NCBI GenBank assembly: GCA_913055695.1
Contig: CAJXKF010000001.1
Coordinates: forward strand, 266,354-330,353
Length of the DNA: 64,000 bases
Direction: 5' to 3'
Source of the DNA: an uncultured Methylophaga sp.
GTDB lineage: Bacteria > Pseudomonadota > Gammaproteobacteria > Nitrosococcales > Methylophagaceae
Position 1 is the stretch's first letter. Every line of letters begins with the position of its first letter. The position numbers were made by a program, and so were the translations under genes. The notes below the pieces were generated by a model. It saw only the letters and a list, made by a program, of their open reading frames with translations, searched no databases and was not told the origin of the DNA. Shown piece by piece: positions 52,914 to 55,032 of the stretch.

Positions 52914-53878
<965 letters not shown>

Positions 53879-53913
53879 TGTGATAAAAGTCTCATTATCA
53901 AAGGGAGACAGTC

Positions 53914-54141
53914 ATGAACAGTATTTCAGCTTTTCAATCCGGCCTTGCCGGGGTACAAAACGGCATCGCCGGCGCCAGCCAGAATGCCAGTCAAATCGCC
54001 CGCGCTGATCAGCTCTCCAGTGAACAGTTGACTCAGGCTCTGGTGCAGCTGGATGCCAATAAACGTCAGGTTGAAGCGGCCGCCAAGGTGATTGAAACCA
54101 GCAATGAAATGATTGGCAGTCTGCTCGATATTAAAGTTTAA
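53914..54141 (+). CDS. 75-aa protein resembling the terminal (D0) helices of flagellar axial proteins
   Basis: A small protein with two amphipathic helices. The N-terminus ('SAFQSGLAGVQNGIAGASQNASQIA') resembles the first helix of FlgE/FlgG/FlgK-type proteins. The C-terminus ('KRQVEAAAKVIETSNEMIGSLLDIKV') resembles their last helix. The hundreds of residues that normally lie between are missing. It has a strong Shine-Dalgarno (AGGGAG) and no flagellar neighbours. It could be a secreted axial-like peptide, a remnant that became a gene, or an unrelated coiled-coil protein. Function is not assigned. Confidence 0.75.
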   Translation: MNSISAFQSGLAGVQNGIAGASQNASQIARADQLSSEQLTQALVQLDANKRQVEAAAKVIETSNEMIGSLLDIKV

Positions 54142-54228: not shown

Positions 54229-55032
54229 TTGAATCAATTCGCTTTTGCCCCTCTTTCTCTGGCTGAGATCGGCCGCGCCATGTCTGCTTCAACCCGGGCG
54301 CAGCTGGAGGATATGCTTATTTATCCGGAAATAAACTCTACCAGCGATGCCTTGTGGACACGCTTCAGCGAGGGCAAACAAACTCCCGCCGTCTGCCTCG
54401 CCGAAACCCAGACCGCGGGTCGCGGACGACGCGGCGATCAATGGCAGTCACCTGCTGCCGGCAATCTGTATCTTTCCCTGTTCTGGCCCAATTGCGCAGA
54501 TACGCCTAGAAATGGCCTCAGTATCGCCATCGGTATCAGCCTGATAAATACGCTTAAGGAAGCTGGAATCAAGCAGTTACAGCTTAAATGGCCTAATGAT
54601 GTGCTGTATCAGCGACAAAAGCTGGCAGGAATTCTTGTAGAATCAAGATTCAATAGCAAACAATACACGGTAGTGGGTATCGGCCTTAACTTTAAGCTTC
54701 CGCCATCCACCCGCGATTTAATCCAACAACCTTCCACCAGCCTCGAGCAGTTATGTGACCCCGTCCCCTGTCGAAACTGGCTGGCAGGAAAAATAATTCA
54801 GAACATGATTGAAACAATTGAACTGTTTGAACACCGTGGCCTCAGCGATTTTCTTCCGCTCTGGCCGCAATATGACGCGCTGCACGAGCAGGCAATCACA
54901 CTGATAGATGGTAATCAGCGCATTCCCGCCCTGGCCTGTGGTATTAACGAGCAAGGTGAACTGCGTTACCTGCGAGATAATCAGATTCACCAGCTCTCAA
55001 ACAGCCACATCAGCATCAGGTTTGCCTCATGA
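54229..55032 (+). CDS. birA: Biotin-[acetyl-CoA-carboxylase] ligase (BirA catalytic form)
   Basis: A protein of about 267 residues that adenylates biotin and attaches it to BCCP. 'PEINSTSDALWTRF', 'CLAETQTAGRGRRGDQWQSPAAGNLYLSLFWP' (the GRGRRG biotinyl-AMP loop) and 'LKWPNDVLYQRQKLAGILVES' are diagnostic. The N-terminal helix-turn-helix of bifunctional BirA is not in this frame, so it probably does not repress bio genes. The start is uncertain: TTG 54229 is the only start after the last stop, with no clear ribosome site; ATG 54280 is internal. It overlaps coaX by 4 bp. Confidence 0.92.
   Translation: MNQFAFAPLSLAEIGRAMSASTRAQLEDMLIYPEINSTSDALWTRFSEGKQTPAVCLAETQTAGRGRRGDQWQSPAAGNLYLSLFWPNCADTPRNGLSIAIGISLINTLKEAGIKQLQLKWPNDVLYQRQKLAGILVESRFNSKQYTVVGIGLNFKLPPSTRDLIQQPSTSLEQLCDPVPCRNWLAGKIIQNMIETIELFEHRGLSDFLPLWPQYDALHEQAITLIDGNQRIPALACGINEQGELRYLRDNQIHQLSNSHISIRFAS

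Follow-up and report, generated by a model that had tools for sequence, protein, structure and literature searches.

The described proteins that come closest to the one presented here belong to the bacterial flagellum or depend on it. The axial proteins FlgE, FlgF, FlgG and FlgC are recognized by the profiles PF00460, for the N-terminal D0 segment, and PF06429 (Flg_bbr_C), for the C-terminal D0 helix. A gate-recognition motif for FlhB, F-x-x-x-phi, has been described in early subunits (PMC8983047). With respect to FliK (PF02120), work on Salmonella describes the last 53 residues as a disordered tail controlling the switch and the folded core as the part that binds the FlhB C-terminal domain, FlhB-C (PMC6972891); another report proposes the cleaved C-domain of FlhB as the target of the last five residues (PMC13344023). 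Caulobacter FliK ends in LDIRI, and these five residues are reported to be needed both for degradation of the C-terminal part by Lon and for the effect that overproduced FliK has on motility (PMC8545394). The SprA-related proteins (PF12118) are putative metalloproteases predicted to be zincin-like (PMC3650047). One of them, CJM1_0395 of C. jejuni, is flagellum-dependent according to PMC5223770, which describes it as missing from flgG-mutant supernatants in two strains. No report joining a D0-like mini-protein, an SprA partner and a FliK-type tail was found in the open-licence literature.

The window analysed, a stretch of 64,000 nucleotides from a Methylophaga genome of 2.6 Mb (G000), contains a gene for a protein of 75 aa, hereafter the mini-protein (Table 1). 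We consider it fairly probable, with some reserve, that this protein is a derivative of FlgE cut to its end helices and that it would serve the flagellar type III export gate as a small client or regulator. This explanation rests on the D0-like C-terminal half, selection, the pairing with an SprA-related gene, the FliK-type tail and the association with flagella. The SprA-related partner, the tail and the FliA-type boxes are new with respect to the first-pass annotation of this DNA, made from the letters alone.

Table 1. The mini-protein gene, its parts and its flanking ORFs (positions in the window).
Feature	Position	Strand	Basis
Upstream neighbour ORF, 35 nt before the mini-protein	53504..53878	+	homologue in 39/80 named loci
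Shine-Dalgarno-like AGGGAGA, 6-12 nt 5' of the mini-protein start	53902..53908	+	direct reading
Mini-protein CDS (P0001, 75 aa, ATG start)	53914..54141	+	ORF read; orthologues, dN/dS
Predicted N-terminal helix, residues 3-29, weak likeness to N-terminal D0 helix	53920..54000	+	AlphaFold model, hhalign
Predicted C-terminal helix, residues 36-74; PF06429 match = residues 39-72	54019..54135	+	profile, AlphaFold, hhalign
C-terminal pentapeptide LDIKV, FliK-type tail (phi-D-x-x-[AVI]-COOH)	54124..54138	+	tail comparison
Downstream neighbour ORF	54229..55032	+	ORF read

The first-pass annotation had proposed an ORF with a strong ribosome site, and the gene is indeed real: besides the AGGGAGA element, it has orthologues of 69-76 aa (30 ORFs extracted, with L002 and L003 left out of the set) and a dN/dS of 0.026-0.057 (a usable value in 11 of 28 pairs, with dS above 1 in six of these 11). 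Judged by sequence comparison, it is a genuine gene under strong purifying selection, and the dN/dS values rule out a neutral remnant. PHROGs gave no match for the mini-protein. The upstream ORF, which we take to encode a DUF2069-like membrane protein, is probably co-transcribed with the mini-protein gene because of the 35-nt gap between them; the downstream ORF is presumably birA-like. Other neighbours appear to us to be arsC- and wrbA-like upstream and coaX-like downstream, and we take wrbA-DUF2069-birA-like to be the context in the window's family. The lack of flagellar neighbours, noted in the first pass, is true for the ORFs read by eye at 48-60 kb of the window. In sister genera, an SprA-related gene sits between the mini-protein gene and the birA-like gene.

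The mini-protein was found in 34 of the 58 genomes searched, its own included: 23/24 in the genus, 9/11 among other family members and 2/23 outside the family. An alignment of 21 members (A1) has nine invariant columns. Among named genomes, a scan at E<=1e-3 detected 86 relatives, of which 80 were retained; their titles include Methylophaga, Ectothiorhodospira, Allochromatium, Reinekea and many gammaproteobacterial MAGs. The profile search was confined to the class Gammaproteobacteria, where 165 of 369 genomes had a match at E<=0.01; many of these matches fall in frames of FlgE size. The short form is carried by at least 89 of the 369, a count that excludes matches in open frames of more than 400 aa (taken as FlgE), hence also two genomes with a FlgE paralogue, and that keeps G111, where a mini-length match terminates a 623-aa open frame. 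Longer forms of 102 aa occur in G358 and G142. Short forms thus defined occur across the Gammaproteobacteria. The mini-protein was absent from the phage collection, and the plasmid collection gave one record, of 4.9 Mb, from Aeromonas caviae. This record (L322, NZ_AP026896.1; 4.94 Mb) is labelled plasmid pKAM479_3; to judge from its size, it may be a misfiled chromosome.

The C-terminal half of the mini-protein is probably homologous to the D0 helix of FlgE/F/G, being borderline by the curated threshold: PF06429 matches the window protein with E 6.2e-5 and 22.9 bits (curated cut-off 23). The same profile matches 16 of the 21 proteins in A1 at E<=1 (lowest E 2.6e-6), and the members of G032 and G106 exceed the cut-off. 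The NCBIfam matches are mostly to FlgE models, far under their cut-offs, and the best PDB sequences for the A1 profile are FlgE chains (E 0.012 and 0.096). In hhalign comparisons with seven axial proteins, run with small alignments and without a negative control, the C-terminal half reached a probability of 94.6 percent and the N-terminal half one of 22.5 percent, yet the latter is collinear from residue 1. PF00460 was not reported for any of the 21 members, and the likeness of the N-terminal half to D0 would be a lead rather than a proof. Thus, from the earlier proposal that both ends resemble the paired D0 helices with nothing between them, the C-terminal likeness holds by profile and the N-terminal one keeps its collinearity but is weak. 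The middle domains (D1/D2 or L-stretch) are indeed absent, since the 75 aa are predicted to form two helices only. The AlphaFold monomer model is a helical hairpin (3-29, 36-74) with a mean pLDDT of 75.7. Foldseek of this model against the PDB gave nothing at E<=0.001, the rows shown being unspecific helical hairpins with AcrA first. The family was not matched by the T3SS inner-rod profile YscI (PF17001), which was reported for one of 21 members at E 0.057.

Although the C-terminal D0 helix is probably shared, by a borderline profile match, with FlgE, FlgF, FlgG and FlgC, together with a collinear N-terminal helix, the mini-protein differs from them in its FliK-type tail, besides the lack of D1/D2 and of a PF00460 match; and its conserved partner, where present, is an SprA-related gene. 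The F-x-x-x-phi motif is absent at its usual spacing (near residues 36-40), residues 33-45 containing no F by eye. Likewise, those C-terminal FlgE residues that PMC10936197 presents as critical are not evident by eye in the family.

In two genomes of one genus (G133 and G253), the slot of the mini-protein, 35 nt before SprA, is occupied by a FlgE paralogue that is full-length (396 aa). That of G133 contains PF00460, D1, D2 and Flg_bbr_C (NCBIfam FlgE, 2e-120). Both paralogues end in GSLFDATA, like the mini-proteins; G133 also has a separate canonical FlgE, which ends in TIINIR. The mini-protein profile gives the paralogues 33.4 and 33.1 bits, versus 24.5 and 23.0 for the other FlgE of the same genomes. 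The paralogue supports a hook protein reduced to its ends. The earlier suggestion of a flagellar axial protein so reduced is partly supported, by this gene beside the same partner and by the PF06429 matches. We infer that the direction was from FlgE to the mini-protein, by loss of the middle; were the tail a gate address, a hook protein would thereby have given rise to a regulator of 75 aa. The paralogue loci are L188:156-1346 and L318:832-2022, and a second FlgE is also present.

The SprA-related partner was found by an all-against-all comparison of the ORFs around the 80 named loci. It lies downstream of the mini-protein gene in at least 37 of them, with differing outer contexts; this is a lower bound because L067, which shares the contig of the SprA-positive G028, was missed in the clustering. 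Its identity as PF12118 was given by five of five proteins tested and later by a sixth, and HExxH is invariant in 25 aligned SprA-related proteins. Among the 369 genomes of the class, PF12118 occurs in 80, the mini-protein in at least 89 and FlgI in 194. Mini-protein and SprA coincide in 56 genomes, whereas 33 have only the former and 24 only the latter (p 3e-24; p 6e-10 among FlgI-positive genomes; both values ignore phylogeny). In 32 of these 56 the genes are adjacent (one contig, within 1.5 kb), SprA being downstream in 29 and upstream in three (G119, G161, G275). The named Aeromonas caviae record has the same pair, with stop and start nearly touching. SprA is present in 8/11 other members of the window's family and was not found in any of the 24 genomes of the window's genus, where the mini-protein is therefore an orphan.

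The SprA-related proteins show no sequence relation to the mini-protein; they differ in the HExxH motif and in the predicted fold, and about half of them end in the same type of tail. Of the 177 residues of the SprA-related model, 104 have a pLDDT of at least 90. Foldseek of this model gave no match at E<=0.001. The first two rows and several others are flagellar rod chains and rank 7 is the metalloprotease FtsH; with E 0.9 or worse, these are insignificant and were not used. Model and search neither support nor exclude the predicted zincin-like fold.

Both mini-proteins and SprA-related proteins end in G-x-phi-phi-D-phi-x-V/A. In the form phi-D-x-x-[A/V/I]-COOH, this tail is found in 74/79 mini-proteins, 38/67 SprA-related proteins and 2/2 FlgE paralogues, and in none of 580 control ORFs from 48 neighbour families. 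Five of the 79 entries miss the pattern, and at least one entry (L071_2) is a spurious ORF. The tail is shared with FliK (26/30 of the best hits and 29/40 further FliK-domain hits), in a sample drawn from the 73 genomes with a match among 143 and made of the best 30 loci plus 40 chosen by hand, 35 of these being second hits. The FliK of E. coli K-12, for instance, ends in GVDIFA. The mini-protein shares with FliK this type of switch pentapeptide but has neither the FliK domain (PF02120 was not reported) nor a ruler region. SprA tails are looser, with 29/67 missing the pattern, and 7/18 SprA genes without an adjacent mini-protein gene bear the tail. The last residues of mini-protein and partner tails did not co-vary (p 1; 27 of 37 pairs usable). 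The tail is not simply inherited with D0, since the FlgC, E, F, G and K proteins encoded in the own genome end differently.

A search of the own genome, restricted to D and to TAA or TGA stops, found the pattern at 16 places versus 57 for the reversed pattern, that is, with no excess. Those ending frames of at least 90 aa belong to a 554-aa FliK-domain protein and to ORFs of at least 315 and of 92 aa; the mini-protein makes up the sixteenth place. The 554-aa protein (PF02120) ends in HLLDISV. It is encoded at L219:5654-7605 (G000:C7) and is the second FliK of this genome, the other lying at C6. Its gene adjoins a 97-aa FlhB-C-like gene (PF01312), and MotB-, ParA- and CheW-like ORFs lie beside it by eye. 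Such a second FliK-like gene is present in 19 of the 23 genomes of the genus searched, the window's own among them, and the tail is kept after a variable linker in every one of the 19; G046 also has one.

Of 2462 ORFs of at least 60 aa in 118 loci, 143 bear the tail, and beyond the mini-protein and SprA forms there are only four, after seven of eleven other rows had been reassigned by eye as mini-proteins: the FlgE paralogue, a small ORF of G064, a YjfB_motility protein of G230 and one unrelated ORF. The ORF of G064 (L164:2163-2411; 82 aa, no Pfam match) ends in GPNLDVYA and lies immediately 5' of an SprA-related gene. That of G230 (L167:2204-2476; PF14070, 4.3e-10) ends in GQNIDVKA and is divergent from an SprA-related gene. 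The putative motility protein YjfB is also small, but it is a different family, and no PF14070 match was reported for mini-protein members.

The link to flagella proposed in the first pass is supported by the distribution of FlgI, found in 79/89 carriers (a lower bound for carriers) versus 115/280 non-carriers (p 2e-16, ignoring phylogeny), and by FliA-type boxes. These boxes were defined as T[AC]AA, 14-16 nt and GCCGATA; one mismatch was tolerated, and the box had to lie no more than 250 nt from the first aligned codon. They precede the mini-protein gene in 13/108 loci, five of them exact, compared with 12/526 control genes, one exact (p 4e-5 for all, 7e-4 for exact); some genomes may count twice among the 108. 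Shuffles gave 0.95 expected and none exact in 20 rounds. Eleven of the 13 boxes lie 52-89 nt upstream. There is none upstream of the mini-protein gene in the window, nor in 95 of the 108 loci. The 18 SprA genes without an adjacent mini-protein gene had one box (about 0.24 expected), and sigma-54-type boxes occurred in 1/80 loci (0.15 expected).

Comparing genomes with and without flagella, as had been suggested, gives the FlgI association on one side and, on the other, three carriers (G028, G032, G120) in which neither FlgI nor FlhA nor another clear Flg_bbr_C protein was found. Each is listed as 99 percent complete, but they are in 20 to 90 contigs, so that flagellar contigs could be missing. 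G028 and G032 also keep SprA, and the locus of G120 (L123) has an exact FliA-type box, as if flagella had been lost recently. Other carriers lack FlgI but have FlhA (G102, G106, G198, G216, G324 and G342 in the class set; G002, G009 and G029 among the relatives), and FlgI absence alone is therefore a weak test. The first pass had named a generic coiled coil as the outcome if orthologues occurred in non-flagellated lineages and D0 gave no match; a few genomes show the former, and the D0 match exists.

Hairpin and tail may allow the mini-protein to dock on the export gate, with FlhB-C as the most likely site, and it would either be exported with the protease or tune the early/late switch; in the window's genus, where the protease partner is missing, it would act alone. 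The main rival is that the tail is mainly a C-terminal degron, mini-protein, SprA and FliK being briefly made and removed by Lon, so that they share turnover and not gate docking. A Caulobacter FliK C-terminal fragment that becomes stable once LDIRI is removed (PMC8545394) speaks for it, the mini-protein tail being of the same type. Docking by the tail is also weakened by the Salmonella finding that the folded FliK core, not the tail, binds FlhB-C. However, the proposed action of the last five Salmonella residues on FlhB (PMC13344023) and the need for the Caulobacter pentapeptide in the overproduction effect (PMC8545394) speak against a mainly degradative tail, which we hold to be unlikely. 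Both roles can coexist, and the same tail may also set the turnover of the mini-protein by Lon.

A non-flagellar cytoplasmic function, with an old D0 hairpin put to use and a flagellar association that is only historical, would suit the context that we assume for the window's family and the three marker-less carriers, two with the SprA partner. Nevertheless, the fragmented state of those genomes, the FlgI association, the FliA-type boxes (one exact in G120 itself) and the need for flagella in C. jejuni SprA export (PMC5223770) make it quite unlikely. The hairpin model and the FlgE relation could also indicate a structural subunit, i.e. a minimal axial protein at rod, hook or cap or in a filament of its own; we regard this as very improbable for a protein without middle domains, whose tail is unlike those of FlgC, E, F, G and K in its genome and whose Foldseek rows show only unspecific hairpins. 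Of the roles put forward in the first pass, a cap, a decoy or a filament of its own found no support here. It is hardly credible, finally, that the D0 likeness arose by chance in a generic small coiled coil: a hairpin with a weak N-terminal match would be expected from one, but not Flg_bbr_C matches in 16/21 members or a FlgE paralogue that ends in this tail and occupies the mini-protein's slot.

A wider extension of the preferred reading, the gate client or regulator, is tentative and on the whole doubtful: the FliK tail would address proteins to the flagellar export gate in general, so that unrelated proteins dock by it on FlhB-C or a homologue. The set would comprise FliK, the second FliK, the SprA-related putative proteases, YjfB, the FlgE paralogue and the 75-aa relative, and flagella would export, or be regulated by, an unrecognised accessory family. 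The FliK switch pentapeptide would then be a portable module, the last five residues could serve to find some of the small and secreted orphan proteins in flagellated bacteria, and the flagellar exit of non-flagellar proteins, a question raised by the Campylobacter secretome, would become testable.

Two further genomes had been candidates for carriers without flagella, to judge from FlgI and FlhA, and were dropped, both having a FliK-domain protein. In G137, the mini-protein gene shares a small contig (L217, G137:C328) with ORFs that look fliA- and fliL-like by eye, a rare instance of a flagellar setting. G073, a single-contig genome without FlgI or FlhA match, has flgB-to-flgE-like ORFs by eye (L214, G073:C1:2590000-2609900), which looks like a flagellar system in decay.
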